Source: a virus. Taken from it: a stretch of DNA of 37,992 nucleotides. The stretch is from positions 1-37,992 of the IMG/VR virus record IMGVR_UViG_3300010410_000003. One strand, written 5' to 3'. This document shows, one piece after another, positions 10,099 through 17,423 of the stretch. Positions within the stretch are counted from its first letter, which is position 1, and each line of letters opens with the position of its first letter. Position numbers and translations under genes: made by a program. Under the pieces are notes generated by a model, which did not search any database, was not told where the DNA came from, and worked only from the letters and a program-made list of their open reading frames with translations.

Positions 10099-11910
10099 AT
10101 GGTAGCAAACGGGTATTATCCAGCAATACAGAATAGCCTAGAGGGGCAGACAACTGCACTTATCAGCGATAGTGCAACGACTATCCCGGTTGATTTCTGC
10201 CAGTATTATATCCCGGCAGGGTGGGCATATGATGATGTATCGTATAATGCGCCAGTATTGGCGGTGCTCGGTCCGGACAACTCAGATTACACTTATCCTG
10301 AGACAGTGAAGATCACAGGGATCAGTGTTGCATCAGGGGCAGGCAACCTCACAGTATCGCGAGGGATTGGTGCAACATCAACAGCAGGGTATGCGCGAAC
10401 ATGGGCAAGTGGCACAAAGATCGCACCTATACTCACTGCACAGCACATCACACAGATACAGGGCGGGTTGGCCGCACTGTCCCGGGATATTGTTGTAGGG
10501 ATCAAGATTGACAATAGCAGCTCAAATCCATCACTGACCTATGTTGATATCGACAAGCAGGCGATCACACTTGATGCCGCAGATTTCAATGCCTCAAAGA
10601 TCTGGGGCAGTATCAGAAAGTGTGTGATTGACCCAGCGACAAACAAGATCACATATGGAAGCAATGCCAGGGGAGATGGTCTTGATCTGACTGGTGCCTC
10701 TGGTGATGTCATGGTAGAGTATCAGCCATTCTATTGGGCTGCTGAGAGAGATGGCGACATTGAGTATCAGTGGGGGTCACCATACCCATATGCGGGCCTG
10801 CCAATCCATCCTTGGTTTGTCCAGAGGGGGGGGTATGTTTCGCCGATGTATCTTGGTGCTTATGGTGCCTGCCTGCTGGATGATGATGGCACTCTCAAGC
10901 TGGTATCAAAAACCGGAGAGCAACCTATCACAGGCGGCGAGATGTGGGCACTTGCCTATACATCTGGCTCAACTGAGTTCACCGTTGGGGAAACTTTGAC
11001 TGGAGCTACAAGCGGGGCAACCGGCGATGTTGTGACCTATCATCTTACATCCGGAACCTGGAGTGCTGGCGACGCTGCGGGCACAGTGTATGTCAAGCAG
11101 CATGACTATGCAACAACCCCGTATCAAGCAGAGGATATCAACGGGACAACTGCCGGGGCAAACTGTTGTAGTATTGCTGATGCTGGATCAGGACTAGGTT
11201 TTGTCATTGCAGACAGCGAGAGCATGGGAAACGCCAAAGGCTCTGGATGGGGATCTGCATGTTGGTGGTCTTGGCATGCTCGTATGTTCCTGATGTATGC
11301 AGATCTTGGGACACGCGATGCACAGACTGCCCTTGGGCAGGGCGTTGTTAATCTGGCATCTGGAACCGGGTATGCAGGTCTTGAAAACGGCGCGGATTCA
11401 TCTGACACCAACATCGGCACAAACGGAACTGGAAGCGGAACTGGCACAGATGGACAAACACCAGTAGTATGGCGTGGATTACAAGATCCATATGGCAACT
11501 GGTGGGAGTTTGTGACAGGTTGGCTTGCAGTTAACGCGGGATACCAGATTGTCAACAGGGCGGGTCTTGCCTCTGCGGTGATGCCAGCGGGGACTTTCAG
11601 TGATGCATCAGAGTATGAGCAGAGTGTAACTGCACCGATCACCGTAGATGGATATATCAAGGGCTATGTTTATGCAGATACGTTACTGCTCGGCCTGTTC
11701 ACACCATCTGACACAACTGGTAGCAGCGATACATACGCGTGTGACTACCTGTATGCACATGATTCTGGAGAGACAAACATCCGCCTGGGCGGGGGCTATT
11801 GGATTACTGGCGGTATTGCGGGTCCCGGCTGTCTGGCTGCGAATAACGGCTCATCGGGTTCCACTCGTACTATCGGTGCCCGCCTCGAGTTCAAGCCGCA
11901 AAATGGATAA
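10099..11910 (+). CDS. DGR target: variable tail/receptor-binding protein, C-type-lectin-like (FGE) fold
   Basis: A 603-aa protein. Residues 1-about 125 resemble a virion attachment domain. Residues about 140-603 show the pattern of a formylglycine-generating-enzyme/C-type lectin-like domain: a WWSWHARMFLMYADLGTRDA helix, WRGLQDPYGNWWEFVTGW near 458-475, and a GGG-W...IGARLEF end. The last 35 codons (residues about 563-597) are the VR of the retroelement. Compared with the TR, 13 residues have been altered there, such as Asn to Tyr, Ile, Thr, Ala or Gly. In known DGRs this surface binds the receptor. The start has GAGGT upstream at 10087-10091. Confidence 0.88.
   Translation: MVANGYYPAIQNSLEGQTTALISDSATTIPVDFCQYYIPAGWAYDDVSYNAPVLAVLGPDNSDYTYPETVKITGISVASGAGNLTVSRGIGATSTAGYARTWASGTKIAPILTAQHITQIQGGLAALSRDIVVGIKIDNSSSNPSLTYVDIDKQAITLDAADFNASKIWGSIRKCVIDPATNKITYGSNARGDGLDLTGASGDVMVEYQPFYWAAERDGDIEYQWGSPYPYAGLPIHPWFVQRGGYVSPMYLGAYGACLLDDDGTLKLVSKTGEQPITGGEMWALAYTSGSTEFTVGETLTGATSGATGDVVTYHLTSGTWSAGDAAGTVYVKQHDYATTPYQAEDINGTTAGANCCSIADAGSGLGFVIADSESMGNAKGSGWGSACWWSWHARMFLMYADLGTRDAQTALGQGVVNLASGTGYAGLENGADSSDTNIGTNGTGSGTGTDGQTPVVWRGLQDPYGNWWEFVTGWLAVNAGYQIVNRAGLASAVMPAGTFSDASEYEQSVTAPITVDGYIKGYVYADTLLLGLFTPSDTTGSSDTYACDYLYAHDSGETNIRLGGGYWITGGIAGPGCLAANNGSSGSTRTIGARLEFKPQNG
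11784..11889 (+). repeat. DGR variable repeat (VR)
   Basis: This 106-base segment aligns without gaps to 12267-12372. It differs at 16 positions, and every one is A in the TR copy (8 A to G, 5 A to C, 3 A to T). All 77 non-A positions agree. It encodes the last variable surface of the tail protein. At both ends the identity stops, at CCTG on the left and CTCGAG on the right. Confidence 0.95.
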
Positions 11911-12217
11911 GATGGAGGACGATAACACGATACCAAAGTTTGCGGATTTTGCAGATCACGGGGGGCGACTGGACGGGGAGAAACTAAAAATAGAAGAGGT
12001 TCTGGGGAAAGAACTCATTATTCTTTCTTTTTCTGTCAGACCGAGCCGGTATGAAAACGACTATTTAACCATCCAATTTCAGTATGAAACAGGTGGGGAA
12101 CATCACGTCGTGTTCACTGGTTCAACTGTGTTATCTGAACAGCTCAAGCAGTATTCAGAAAAGTTGCCATTTGCCGCAGCAATACAAAAAATAGGCAAAT
12201 ACTATAGTTTTGTATGA
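11903..12217 (+). CDS. Small beta-rich protein within the DGR cassette, unknown function
   Basis: A 104-aa protein starting at ATG 11903, which overlaps the end of the variable protein gene in another frame. An upstream reading in the same frame (from 11648) is only a shadow of that gene. After an acidic start the sequence has alternating strands (KELIILSFSVRPSR, LTIQFQYETGG, EHHVVFTGS), then a helix, and ends PFAAAIQKIGKYYSFV. The end resembles small OB-fold-type ssDNA-binding proteins of some phages, from memory. It lies between VR and TR, where the Avd accessory gene often sits, but Avd is a helical bundle and this is not. A role in retrohoming or nucleic acid binding is only a hypothesis. 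Confidence 0.7.
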   Translation: MDKMEDDNTIPKFADFADHGGRLDGEKLKIEEVLGKELIILSFSVRPSRYENDYLTIQFQYETGGEHHVVFTGSTVLSEQLKQYSEKLPFAAAIQKIGKYYSFV

Positions 12218-12512
12218 CTATGACTATAAGGACATGCTGCGTATGGTGGGCGGCGCTGGTTTTCCTCCTGGGCGGGGGCAATTGGAATAATGGCAGTAAT
12301 GCGGGTCCCAGCTATCTGAATGCGAATAACGAATCATCGAATTCCAATCGTAATATCGGTGCCCACCTCGAGCTCAGATTGAGCGGCTCTGAACAGCAGC
12401 ATATCCTGCACCGGGGTATCCGGTCAAACACGTTACACTCTCTCTGGCCTGTGTTGGTAGGCTCGCCGAAGATTCAGGCTAAGAGACAGAGCATCTATTT
12501 TTGGAGTTCAGC
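12218..12512 (+). ncRNA. DGR template-RNA region (noncoding), contains TR
   Basis: The 295 bases between the small DGR gene and the reverse transcriptase contain the TR and its flanks. A frame open from 12214 to 12516 is probably not translated, since its TR portion reads as the Asn-rich translation typical of template repeats. A weak TATA-like sequence at 12222-12230 could start an RNA near 12250. RNA ends are not determined. In known DGRs the RNA spans the TR and the region up to the RT gene. Confidence 0.5.
12267..12372 (+). repeat. DGR template repeat (TR)
   Basis: A 106-base copy of the VR with 29 adenines, of which 16 are changed in the VR. In the VR frame it reads with many AAT/AAC codons (segments such as NWNNG and NRN), the classic design that allows the greatest amino-acid variety and excludes stops. 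It lies 141 bases before the reverse transcriptase start. The right-hand flank after CTCGAG differs from that of VR, as expected for IMH-star versus IMH. Confidence 0.95.
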
Positions 12513-13574
12513 ATGAAGAGATATGGCAACCTCTATACTCAGATATGCGCAAAGGACAACCTTTACAGAGCACACCTGAACGCACGGAAAGGTAAGTCAC
12601 ACTATGTTGAGGTGCAAGCGGTCAATGCTGACCCCAAGCCCTACATCGACGCCCTGCATGAGATGTTGGTCAACAAGACATATCGCACAGCAGAGTATCA
12701 GACAAAACAGATATATGAGCCCAAGCAGCGAACCATCTACAAGCTGCCATACTACCCTGACCGGATCGTGCATCACGCGATCATGCAGGTGCTACAGCCG
12801 ATATGGGACAAGCAGTTTATTTATGATCTCTACTCTGCAATACCGGGCAAGGGACTGCATGCAGGCTCATATCGCCTGCGAGAGTTCCTGAAAGATACTC
12901 CTAACACACGATACTGTCTTAAGATGGATATCGCTAAGTATTATCCATCGGTTAGACATGACGTACTCATTGACCAGATCAAACACACGATCAAGTGCCC
13001 GGACACGCTCTGGCTCTTGGAAGAGATCATCCGTTCCCCTAGGGGGGAGACAAACATCCCGATCGGGAATTATTTGTCTCAGTACTTCTCGAACATTTAT
13101 TTATCAGAACTAGACCATCTGATCAAAGAGAAGTATCGGATGAAATACTATATCCGATACTGTGATGATGCTGTCGTCCTACATAGTGACAAGGCAGTAC
13201 TCAAAGATCTCCTTGAAGAGCTCACGGAACGCCTTGAACCTATGGGACTGCAGCTGAACAAAAAGACACAGATCTTCCCGGTCGATGCACGAGGTATTGA
13301 CTTCCTCGGATATCGGCACTTCCGAGGGTATACCCTTCTGAGATCCTCTTCTGCCCGGAGACTGAAACGCAGGCTTCGGGGTATCGTCTCACATCCAGAA
13401 CGATACGATGCACAGACCATCATTAGTTCAGTGATGGCATATGCCGGATGGCTGAAACACTGCAACTCATACAACCTACAGCAGACCTGCCTGCTCACTC
13501 CTGCCATACAGGACGTTATGCGGGCCTCAGCTGCATCACTGGGGATATGCAACCCCATGGAGAAACTATCATGA
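12513..13574 (+). CDS. DGR reverse transcriptase
   Basis: A 353-aa group-II-intron-like reverse transcriptase that copies the TR RNA into mutagenised cDNA. ATG 12513 has GGAG about six bases upstream. The TTG at 12501 is less likely. Motif A is KMDIAKYYPSVRHD (Asp-139), motif B contains IGNYLSQ at 184-190, the [ILV]GxxxSQ signature of DGR enzymes, and motif C is YCDD at 216-219. Motif D/E segments include GLQLNKKTQ and GIDFLGYRHF. There is no maturase or endonuclease domain, and the length suits the DGR class. A stop overlap (ATGA) joins it to the next gene. All motifs look intact, so it is likely active. Confidence 0.95.
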   Translation: MKRYGNLYTQICAKDNLYRAHLNARKGKSHYVEVQAVNADPKPYIDALHEMLVNKTYRTAEYQTKQIYEPKQRTIYKLPYYPDRIVHHAIMQVLQPIWDKQFIYDLYSAIPGKGLHAGSYRLREFLKDTPNTRYCLKMDIAKYYPSVRHDVLIDQIKHTIKCPDTLWLLEEIIRSPRGETNIPIGNYLSQYFSNIYLSELDHLIKEKYRMKYYIRYCDDAVVLHSDKAVLKDLLEELTERLEPMGLQLNKKTQIFPVDARGIDFLGYRHFRGYTLLRSSSARRLKRRLRGIVSHPERYDAQTIISSVMAYAGWLKHCNSYNLQQTCLLTPAIQDVMRASAASLGICNPMEKLS

Positions 13575-13840
13575 CAGAAAGTACAATCAGGCCACAGGCC
13601 ATAGAGATCAACACGATCAAAAAAGGTGTTGCTGAGATACTTGCACACTGGGATATCGTGCAGATTGAGCGCGAAGATGAGATGAGCGGTGAGACACAGA
13701 CAATATATCAGTATGAAGAGTGCCGCATGAAATGGGTACTTGAAGGAGACTTTGAAACACGTGAAGATGCGCAGACATATCTGGATGCAAACAGTGAGGA
13801 AATTCTGAGGTTTGCGAAACCAACGAAAGTGGCACTATGA
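13571..13840 (+). CDS. Small acidic unknown protein after the RT
   Basis: An 89-aa protein starting at ATG 13571, overlapping the RT stop by four bases. It contains helical and strand segments, a YQYEECRMKW segment and a C-terminal helix with EDAQTYLDANSEEILRFA. It is not an Avd-like helical bundle. Small proteins of this general pattern occur in tail or fibre operons, but I cannot name a family. The tight overlap with the RT suggests it is co-translated with it. The next gene also overlaps by four bases. Confidence 0.6.
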   Translation: MTESTIRPQAIEINTIKKGVAEILAHWDIVQIEREDEMSGETQTIYQYEECRMKWVLEGDFETREDAQTYLDANSEEILRFAKPTKVAL

Positions 13841-14160
13841 AAGACGAAAAAGAAGAGTGGACGCAGGGGGAGATGGTTGGCACATTTGCCAACACCCCCC
13901 ACGAGCGGCACTCTATAATGGTTGGGTTTGCGAATGGGTTAAGCGAAGGTTCAAAGTTTACCTGCAGCACAAAGTATGAAGATGAAGCGCAGTACTATGC
14001 TTTGGGGTGGTCACTTGGGGAGATCATAGATCGGATTAAAAACAACAATCCTGATGACACTCGTGTGGCACTGGCGCAGTCAGCAGGTGTTATAATCAAA
14101 TATGCATCGATTGTGCTGGTTGCGGTTATCGGGTGCTGGATAAAAATGAGGGGGATATGA
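13837..14160 (+). CDS. Small protein with C-terminal membrane helix
   Basis: A 107-aa protein with a charged soluble N-terminal two thirds and one hydrophobic helix near residues 85-103 (VIIKYASIVLVAVIGCWIKM), then a short basic end. The layout resembles a tail-anchored membrane protein. It lies between the DGR and the tail hub gene, so it may aid lysis, host-membrane interaction or superinfection control. It overlaps both neighbours (ATGA at each side). No lysis-protein signature is certain. Confidence 0.6.
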   Translation: MKDEKEEWTQGEMVGTFANTPHERHSIMVGFANGLSEGSKFTCSTKYEDEAQYYALGWSLGEIIDRIKNNNPDDTRVALAQSAGVIIKYASIVLVAVIGCWIKMRGI

Positions 14161-17100
14161 GTTACAGGATTGATCTGTTTGATGCAACCGGCGCACGGGT
14201 TGCGATACTGCAAGAGGCGATACTGACCACACTGTATCTTGACACATCAACAGATGCAGCGCCAACTTTGACTTTATCCCTGCCGGTTGAGGATCCTAAG
14301 TCTGCGTATATCTCGCCACTCTACTATCTTAAGGTTTGGAACACACAGACCTCTGCGTATGAGTTCTCTGTGTTTAAACTGCTCAATCCAGAGATTGACG
14401 ACAGCAGCAGCACGTTGGAGATCAAGGCAACATATCAGGGCATACTAACCCGGTTATCCGATGAGCATATCGAGGCATACGACACCACCAGCGTAGGTGA
14501 TACCTTTGCAAACGTGATCACCGACCTGTTGGCGTTCCAGGTCAACAGCCCGGCGATCACCGTGGGCACGCTTGAGATATCCCCAACGGTTGCAATTGCC
14601 ATCGAATCTGGCAATATTTACTCGGCACTAAATTCTATCCGAGATGCGTATGGAGGGTGGTTTGAGGTAGATGCTAACTATCAACTCAACTGGTTTGCAG
14701 ACAACACAGACAATCCTAAGAGGCGCATAGAGCGACGCAAGAACCTTAAAGCCATGACATACACCCCACAATATGATCAAATTGTGAACCGTGTTTATGC
14801 ATATGGAAAAGGCGAAACAGATTCGCGGGTCACTCTTGTTGATGCGGGGGAGGCTAACGAGTATATCGATGACGCTGCATCTCAGGCACTTTATGGTGTG
14901 GTCGCACGGCAGTATATTGACAAGAGCATAACACATCCGACCACCCTGCTAAACTACGCTGAGCGCATCCTCGCACAGTACAAAGATCCGCCCTATCAGT
15001 ACAGTGTGGATGTGCTCAACCTTGCAGAGGTTGATGGGTTTGATTACAGCTTTGAGAGTTTAGGACTCGATACCCGGGTGCGGGTGATTGATGATTTGCT
15101 TAGCATTGATGTCAACACCTCAATTGTGAGCATGAGTATTAATCTGCTCAACCCCGAAGAGATCAGCATTGAACTCAGCACGATCAAAAACGATTTATCA
15201 GATCTGTTTGGCGACATCCTCAACCTGCAGGACATCAGCAATTCAGTAGCCACACAGATCGGTGCCGGGCAGGTCACGGTCCTCGGCACGTTTGTTGTCG
15301 AGGACTGGGTTACCGCCGGGACTACTACTATCGATGGCGGCAACATCACAGCAAACACGATCACGGTAGATCAGATACAGGCAGGAGTGTTGGGGAACAA
15401 AACATATAGACAGGCAGCAGAACCGGCATCACCTGATACAGGCGACATATGGATCGACTCTGATGACGGCAACCTGATGTATCGGTATGATGGCGCGGCA
15501 TGGGTTGAGACTCAGGACGCTGAGATCGGGGATGCCATAACCGCAGCTGCAACCGCACAGAGCACTGCTGATCTCAGGATCACCACGTTTTATCAGACAG
15601 ATATACCGACATCTCTCGCAGTTGGGGATCTCTGGGTAGACACTGACGACGACAACAAGCTATACCGTGCTGAGAGCATAGGTGCGGATCAAATCACTGC
15701 AGGCGAGTGGGTGATTGCCAGAGACGACGGGATCGGTCAGGCAATATCAGATGCTGCAGGAGCGCAATCCACAGCTGACAGTAAGGTGGTAACATTTGCA
15801 CAGGCAGGTATCCCAACGAGCACCGATATAGGGGATCTGTGGGTAGATACCGATGACGACAACAAGCTATATAGGGCTGCAATTATCGGTGCAGACCAGA
15901 TCACAGCAGGAGAGTGGGAACTCGTCAGAGACGATGGGATCGCGCAAGCTCTATCTGATGCATCACAGGCGATATCAGACGCGGCAACGGCACAAGGCAC
16001 AGCTGACGGCAAGGTCACGACCTTTTACCAGATTGGCGAACCAACAGCAGAGGGTGTCGGCGATCTATGGGTTGACACTGACGATGGAAACAAGCTGTAT
16101 AGGTGGTCTGGGTCTGCATGGGTTGAAGTCCAGGATGCAGGGATCGCATCCGCTATTGCTGATGCAGCAACCGCTCAGACTACGGCAGACGGCAAGATAG
16201 TATCATTTTACCAGGATACCGCGCCAACTGCAGAGGGAGAAGGTGATCTCTGGGTCGATACCGACGATGGAAACAAACTCTATCGGTGGTCTGGGTCTGC
16301 ATGGGTGACTGTCCGAGATGTTGACATCGCGCAGGCAATCTCTGATGCGGCAACAGCACAGGCCACCGCAGACGGCAAGGTCACTACGTTCTACCAGATT
16401 GCTGCTCCGACTGCAGAGGGTGTTGGTGATCTTTGGGTAGATACTGACGATGGAAACAAGCTATACCGCTGGGATGGGTCTGCATGGGTAGAAGTCCAGG
16501 ACGCAGGGATTGCGCAGGCGATATCTGACGCTGCGACTGCCCAGACGACCGCAGACGGTAAGATTGTCACATTCTATCAGGATACTGAACCCACTGCAGA
16601 AGGAGTGGGAGACATCTGGTTTGATACTGATGCAGGCAATGAGCAGTATCGATGGTCTGGGTCTGCATGGGTTAAAGCAGCGGTTACCCCTGCACAGACC
16701 ATCGCAACGATCAACCTTGATGGCGGCACCGTGCAGATCAACGGCGAACAGATCGAGTTTAACGGGACAGTTGGAAGCGGCGATGCGCTTGATTCTGGGA
16801 ATTATGTTGCGGCTACGTCAGGATGGAAGATCAACGGCGCTGGTGATGCTGAGTTTAACAACGTAACTGTGCGCGGGAACTTGGCCGCGTGCACGATTGA
16901 AGCTGGGCAATCCCTTAATGTTACTGGAACTGGGCAAGTCAAATTGATTGGAACCGATGCAAAATTCTCAATGTTTTACGCAGATAGTGACACTTACCCA
17001 TTGTACCAAGTAACAATAATATCGGATCAACCAAATATTATCCTTAGAGATGACGGTTCATCATCAGATGTAAGATTGCAAATTAATGATGGATTTATTT

Positions 17101-17423
17101 CCCAAAATGCCTCTGATAGTGATGCAAAGATTCAGCTCGTAGAGGGCGAAATATTATATTGTATATATGCGGATGGTACTACCGCAGTAAGTTTAAATTC
17201 CCTCACAGGGGTGGTAAAATTAGCAGAACTGTCATCATCTGGTGGTTCAGGGGCATCAATAATTGTAAATAATAATTTATATATGCCCACGAAAGATATA
17301 ATCTGCAATAGCCTAACAAATACCTCAGGTATCATGTACATGGGGGATTCGACCAGCTACATATTCAAATCTGGTAATGACTTATACTGGCATGCAAATT
17401 CAACAAACACAAAACTAAACTGA
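14157..17423 (+). CDS. Tail hub/fibre protein with Tal-like N-terminus and seven repeats
   Basis: A 1088-aa protein. The N-terminal about 400 residues follow the pattern of tail-associated hub (Tal/gp27-like) proteins: ATGARVAILQEAI, SPLYYLKVWNTQTSAYEF, YGGWFEVDANYQLNWF and QIVNRVYAYGKG. Residues about 415-840 hold seven repeats of about 60 aa, each with GDLWVDTDDGNKLYRW, SAWVEVQD and a helix ending in DAATAQTTADGK. The last about 170 residues are a different beta-rich region encoded by AT-richer DNA. The start is ATG 14157 (ATGA overlap). It probably anchors and extends from the tail tip and contacts the host cell. Confidence 0.8.
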   Translation: MSYRIDLFDATGARVAILQEAILTTLYLDTSTDAAPTLTLSLPVEDPKSAYISPLYYLKVWNTQTSAYEFSVFKLLNPEIDDSSSTLEIKATYQGILTRLSDEHIEAYDTTSVGDTFANVITDLLAFQVNSPAITVGTLEISPTVAIAIESGNIYSALNSIRDAYGGWFEVDANYQLNWFADNTDNPKRRIERRKNLKAMTYTPQYDQIVNRVYAYGKGETDSRVTLVDAGEANEYIDDAASQALYGVVARQYIDKSITHPTTLLNYAERILAQYKDPPYQYSVDVLNLAEVDGFDYSFESLGLDTRVRVIDDLLSIDVNTSIVSMSINLLNPEEISIELSTIKNDLSDLFGDILNLQDISNSVATQIGAGQVTVLGTFVVEDWVTAGTTTIDGGNITANTITVDQIQAGVLGNKTYRQAAEPASPDTGDIWIDSDDGNLMYRYDGAAWVETQDAEIGDAITAAATAQSTADLRITTFYQTDIPTSLAVGDLWVDTDDDNKLYRAESIGADQITAGEWVIARDDGIGQAISDAAGAQSTADSKVVTFAQAGIPTSTDIGDLWVDTDDDNKLYRAAIIGADQITAGEWELVRDDGIAQALSDASQAISDAATAQGTADGKVTTFYQIGEPTAEGVGDLWVDTDDGNKLYRWSGSAWVEVQDAGIASAIADAATAQTTADGKIVSFYQDTAPTAEGEGDLWVDTDDGNKLYRWSGSAWVTVRDVDIAQAISDAATAQATADGKVTTFYQIAAPTAEGVGDLWVDTDDGNKLYRWDGSAWVEVQDAGIAQAISDAATAQTTADGKIVTFYQDTEPTAEGVGDIWFDTDAGNEQYRWSGSAWVKAAVTPAQTIATINLDGGTVQINGEQIEFNGTVGSGDALDSGNYVAATSGWKINGAGDAEFNNVTVRGNLAACTIEAGQSLNVTGTGQVKLIGTDAKFSMFYADSDTYPLYQVTIISDQPNIILRDDGSSSDVRLQINDGFISQNASDSDAKIQLVEGEILYCIYADGTTAVSLNSLTGVVKLAELSSSGGSGASIIVNNNLYMPTKDIICNSLTNTSGIMYMGDSTSYIFKSGNDLYWHANSTNTKLN
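15399..16680 (+). repeat. Seven tandem repeats within the tail hub gene
   Basis: Seven units of about 180 bases. Each encodes a Tyr/Trp-containing beta section and an Ala/Thr-rich helix. The last four are closely similar, and units 2 and 3 carry extra residues (GADQITAGEW) in place of the SAW section. Homologous recombination between units could change copy number. Confidence 0.85.

Follow-up and report, generated by a model that had tools for sequence, protein, structure and literature searches.

The 37,992-nucleotide stretch analysed here (positions 1 to 37,992 of IMG/VR virus record IMGVR_UViG_3300010410_000003; hereafter, the window) carries a genuine diversity-generating retroelement (DGR) with a complete set of core parts. 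Taken as a whole, we think it quite likely that this is a complete DGR of what is probably a methanogen virus, in which a small protein, orf104, serves as an alternative accessory, probably with an OB fold, instead of Avd. The template and variable repeats (TR and VR), the reverse transcriptase (RT) and the CLec target are seen directly, as are the lack of a detectable Avd and the linkage of both orf104 and a spacer RNA to the RT. That DGRs exist as systems, and that one occurs in an archaeal virus, was already established. The features discussed below are the following:

10099-11910, + strand: DGR target gene encoding a 603-aa tail protein, with the VR in its C-terminal CLec (FGE-type) domain (phrog_5302, 6.5e-38)
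11784-11889, + strand: VR, differing from the TR by 16 substitutions, each at a TR adenine
11903-12217, + strand: orf104, a 104-aa accessory protein that occupies the avd position, with a predicted OB-like fold (DGR RT adjoining in 59 of 61 homologous loci)
12267-12372, + strand: TR, an ungapped match to the VR, with 29 adenines
12409-12487, + strand: folded RNA element between TR and RT (covariation across 47 divergent loci)
12513-13574, + strand: DGR reverse transcriptase, 353 aa (PF00078, 81 bits; phrog_1423 reverse transcriptase, 3e-124)
13571-13840, + strand: small gene behind the cassette, probably part of the tail module and not of the DGR (in the related virus L035, a relative directly follows the target gene)

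The DGR cassette and the activity of related cassettes

TR and VR had been predicted to be repeats of 106 bases each that align without gaps, and this is what we find, with an offset of 483 between them and the VR lying at the end of the tail-protein gene. Over a 102-bp core that holds the 29 adenines, 16 of 16 mismatches are at TR adenines (chance p ~3.6e-11), the changes from TR to VR being eight A>G, five A>C and three A>T; this is the only pair of such type in the window. At their 3' ends, where IMH and IMH* would lie, both repeats read CCTCGAG, after which the sequences diverge. Seventeen TR codons are variable, 10 of them AAY, so that about 1.2e16 proteins are possible. The RT motifs named in the original prediction are present as well (IGNYLSQ at aa 184 and YCDD at aa 216). 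We place the start of the RT at ATG 12513, the start in the ORF list being TTG 12501, and a 100-aa ORF that runs across the TR (12214-12516) was taken as non-coding.

For the target protein, an AF2 model of residues 133-603 with 20 relatives (pTM 0.75, mean pLDDT 65, weak in places) matched TaqVP, the DGR variable protein of Thermus aquaticus (5vf4), with a Z of 22.1, far ahead of all others; next came FGE-type proteins, TvpA (2y3c, Z 9.4) and Mtd (1yu3, Z 9.4). These structural matches therefore place the VR within the fold that usually serves as DGR scaffold, a CLec domain. Searching viral contigs and phages with the target protein itself gave no direct match, and its relatives were reached via the RT. 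With adenine-only TR/VR differences, a DGR-type RT and a CLec target all present, the claim of a DGR is borne out. The tail gene, TR and RT that had been described as consecutive are indeed all there, but the ORF at 11903-12217, between VR and TR, had gone unmentioned.

One may also consider decay or inactivity of the cassette in the window virus, with the VR as a fossil, especially since no inverted repeat of at least 6 bp (a hairpin) was found downstream of the VR. Nevertheless, the reading frames are all intact, none of the variable TR codons can yield a stop codon in the VR frame, TR and VR differ at adenines only, and activity is seen in related cassettes of this type. We regard decay as highly unlikely. 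The activity of related cassettes was observed by comparing near-identical contig pairs from different samples, all of them with orf104 and without Avd, and none of them being the window virus. In one such pair (L070/L072), 18 of 38 adenine-templated VR sites differ, whereas no difference is found at 87 other VR positions, 125 TR positions or 1424 flanking positions. Flanks were likewise identical in L044/L046 (0/1519, versus 14/29 adenine-templated VR sites that differ) and in L061/L062 (0/1485 versus 17/35), and differed at 11 of 1374 positions in L131/L134, versus 17 of 32 adenine-templated VR sites. These comparisons show that Avd-less cassettes of the orf104 type diversify in nature, a result that applies to related contigs and not to the window's own virus.

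orf104 and Avd

orf104 sits between VR and TR and overlaps the stop codon of the target gene. It matches nothing in Pfam, NCBIfam, PADLOC or among PDB sequences, and the sole family match is a weak one of 13 out of 22 orf104 members to phrog_19665, which is unnamed. When loci were selected by orf104 only, viral contigs gave 56, of which 54 had an adjoining DGR-type RT, usually 5-56 bp upstream, and ~85,000 bacterial and archaeal species genomes gave five, every one with a DGR RT; viral and bacterial loci together thus give the 59 of 61 listed above. Because searches with orf104 alone lead to a DGR RT at nearly every locus, the protein is tied to DGRs and not to tails generally. As side observations, one contig has a second orf104 copy without an RT (L079, 4001-4297) and ends in an RT-orf104 pair (L091), and in L158 RT and orf104 are fused in frame, which could be an indel.

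Avd was sought with a profile built from 10 Avd proteins, which recognises BPP-1, BalMu-1 and other annotated cases, and none was found in the window. Among 109 RT-selected loci 68 had orf104, 13 had Avd, 28 had neither and none had both; nor did any of the 61 orf104-selected loci have Avd. Since orf104-type RTs were abundant among the RT queries, the proportions among the 109 loci are biased, the zero overlap less so, and since the Avd loci represent few tree lineages, only a small number of independent switches underlies the mutual exclusion. The 28 loci with neither gene imply that an accessory may be dispensable, or may be unrecognised, at some loci. Complete-looking DGRs of the same RT group that lack both Avd and orf104 are L004, L008, L102, L106, L108-L111, L116, L120-L122, L130, L135, L151 and L163. 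That orf104 is itself a remote Avd was ruled out by the missing profile match and the different predicted fold.

An alternative explanation accepts the DGR as real and holds that orf104 plays no part in retrohoming, being a gene of the virion or the tail module that hitch-hikes close to DGR targets. The placement of orf104 among tail genes would fit this, as would its being missing from the 28 of 109 related RT loci that have neither accessory, and one contig (L087) on which orf104 is present and no RT is visible. However, orf104 is almost never found in tail modules that lack a DGR: the window protein matched only two of 50,697 phage records, vir525 and ANMV-1, and both are DGR carriers. Its place also shifts, from upstream of the TR to downstream of the RT, while it stays with the RT; the order target-orf104-TR-RT is seen in the window and in L055, L057, L098-L101, L104, L105 and L107, and elsewhere orf104 is behind the RT. 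Moreover, the RT of hankyphages is fused to an orf104-like domain, and orf104 and Avd never occur together. Hitch-hiking therefore appears very unlikely, and we prefer to see orf104 as a DGR accessory.

What such an accessory might do is suggested by its predicted structure. The AF2 model of orf104 is a confident one (pLDDT 88.6) and has a strand-helix order as in the OB fold. VIA-align returned mostly OB folds (SSB, Rim1, PriB and a RuvBL2 domain), the best Z being only 6.9, in the range (Z <=7) where common arrangements score too. Foldseek gave no significant match for the model in the PDB, and its best matches among viral models were RT proteins. The window protein is acidic (pI 5.1), the family median pI is 8.4, and Avd is basic. 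Judging by a median dN/dS of ~0.06 over 162 non-independent pairs, orf104 is under strong purifying selection. We infer that orf104 is probably a nucleic-acid-binding partner of the RT with an OB fold and a role like that of Avd in BPP-1. Among the few papers that mention both DGRs and an OB fold or ssDNA binding, none, judging by title and abstract, describes such an accessory.

An RNA element between TR and RT

In the window, the spacer element consists of hairpin A, the sequence CAAAnAC, and an outer helix around GTGTTGGTA, hairpin C and GAAGATTC. We derived a consensus from 47 spacer loci, the window and 46 others, that had been picked via the motif GTGTTRGTA, independently of the hairpins: hairpin A is TGCC-NCTT-GGCA, with variants, followed by CAAAACAC and then by the outer helix, which encloses GTGTTRGTA, hairpin C and GAANGCTC. 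Pairs 1 and 2 of hairpin C are formed in 46 and 43 of the 47 loci, compared with at best 40 and 33 in 2000 shuffles, and are seen as G-C, C-G, A-U, U-A and G-U versions. Outer-helix stems of at least 5 are found in 32 of 47 loci (mean 16 and maximum 24 when cross-paired). The element is common to orf104-type and accessory-less DGR loci, none of 11 Avd-type spacers has the GTGTTRGTA motif at <=1 mismatch, and Rfam holds no match to it. We propose the spacer RNA as a candidate element for docking or priming within the DGR RNA.

In the mechanism that we propose, the RT would copy the RNA containing the TR, with its folded spacer element, making errors at adenines, and the cDNA would replace the VR. 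Because it is the mutated cDNA that replaces the VR, the receptor-binding tip of the tail protein would vary, with up to ~1e16 proteins. orf104 would take over the job of Avd: as a partner of the RT that binds nucleic acid through an OB fold, it would aid the priming, protection or homing of the cDNA. There is perhaps an even chance that this describes a large second class of DGRs, Avd-less and present in archaeal and bacterial viruses, in which an OB-fold helper, separate or fused, and the spacer RNA prime or protect the mutagenic cDNA, unlike the Avd barrel. The DGR mechanism is known mainly from the RT-Avd system of BPP-1, and a widespread, active class without Avd would be a direct route to the essential parts of mutagenic retrohoming. 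About a quarter of DGRs have been reported without an accessory gene, according to a figure cited in PMC7290462, and orf104 may account for some of these. For directed evolution, a smaller or single-chain (RT-fused) machine would be on offer.

Relation to known DGRs

The cassette resembles that of Bordetella phage BPP-1 in its layout (mtd-avd-TR-144 bp-brt there, target-orf104-TR-140 bp-RT in the window), and both have adenine-only TR/VR differences, a CLec target and a DGR RT. They differ in the accessory, avd in BPP-1 and orf104 in the window being unrelated by HMM, and in the spacer RNA.

In a tree composed of DGR RTs only, including BPP-1, the window RT falls into a group with L098-L107 (support values 91-94, not starred). 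The original prediction had suggested a tree with ANMV-1; the RT does fall among DGR RTs, within the limits of such a tree, but not with ANMV-1. Holding window, ANMV-1 and vir525 to a single archaeal DGR lineage gives a tree that the AU test rejects (p 2.6e-9), long branches being involved. Since the window RT groups with neither ANMV-1 nor vir525, "archaeal DGR" does not denote one lineage, and archaeal viruses thus seem to use the same arms-race device with RTs from several separate lineages. A statement in a 2015 study has ANMV-1 and nanoarchaeal RTs as one group (PMC4372165).

ANMV-1 (KP703175) likewise has a tail-protein DGR in an archaeal virus (Paul et al. 2015, PMC4372165), with an orf104 homologue (AJP62065.1, deposited as a hypothetical protein) directly behind the RT. 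It differs from the window in that orf104 is downstream of the RT and in the RT itself, which is ~34% identical and lies elsewhere in the tree. A figure legend in the same paper draws an Avd ORF (PMC4372165); our Avd profile found nothing on ANMV-1, which now gains a sequence-supported accessory candidate in its orf104 homologue. vir525 (BK063673), a Methanosarcinales virus, is similar in its adenine-variable TR/VR, its RT (46% identical) and its orf104 homologue (41%), whereas its gene order is target-TR-RT-orf104 and its RT belongs to another clade. Hankyphage p00 of Bacteroides (PMC6199706) has an orf104-like domain and no Avd by profile. There the domain is the C-terminus of the RT gene (L180, 2501-3805; 26 bits), in contrast to the separate gene of the window, the RT is distant, and the host is bacterial. 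In LoVEphage, a related orf104-like domain is a separate hypothetical protein.

As related in PMC10053308, the survey of Wu et al. 2018 proposed, besides HRDC and MSL, one DGR-linked protein outside the Pfam and CDD families. Going by that description, it resembles orf104 in being small, DGR-associated and outside Pfam, and the two may be the same protein. If so, the association of orf104 with DGRs was already known, and what would still be new is the exclusivity with Avd, the RT fusion, the predicted fold, the covarying spacer RNA, the population activity and the presence in archaeal viruses. Their Pfam-less protein is reportedly named CH1.

The virus and its host

A 99-bp direct repeat is common to both ends of the record, so the genome looks complete, circular or terminally redundant. 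Ten of its ORFs match Methanoculleus virus Blf4, a lytic methanogen virus that has been isolated (PMC8540584); these include portal, Mu-F-like, protease/scaffold, two head-tail genes and a PDDEXK nuclease, and Blf4 is the best named match of both the primase (54% identical) and the capsid (36%). Capsid, portal, scaffold, primase and nuclease genes are collinear with those of Blf4 (Pungoviridae). The terminase differs and has no Blf4 match, and no RT or DGR is annotated in Blf4, relative to which the cassette is therefore an addition.

The earlier description of a probable archaeal tailed virus gains support from these genes, which lie outside the cassette. An archaeal host is likely because the core genes match Blf4, and their similarity points to a methane-producing, Methanomicrobiales-like archaeon as the probable host. 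Alternatively, the host could be a bacterium, with the archaeal-virus-like genes acquired by exchange. In its favour, bacterial MAGs and phages contain relatives of the RT and of orf104, the closest named records to the terminase are bacterial phages, and no TBP-like (TATA-binding protein) gene was recognised when the ORFs were scanned. Yet exchange would have to account for capsid, portal, Mu-F-like, protease/scaffold, primase and nuclease genes that all match a methanogen virus, two of them with no better named match, and we consider a bacterial host rather unlikely. No tRNA genes were found in the window, and the scanned ORFs yielded no recognisable lysis gene.

In the nearest relative by terminase (L022/L035, 66%) no RT was found. 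Its contig opens within the VR-like end of a target gene, and what comes next is a relative of gene 13571-13840, with no cassette separating the two (L035, 1-400); because of that starting point a loss of the cassette is not separable from a broken assembly. Many accessory-less DGR loci have a look-alike of this small gene downstream of their RT. Further downstream, the tail protein at 14133-17423 of the window contains about five repeats of roughly 57 aa each (PTAEGVGDLWVDTDDGNKLYRWSGSAWVEVQDAGIAQAISDAATAQ).
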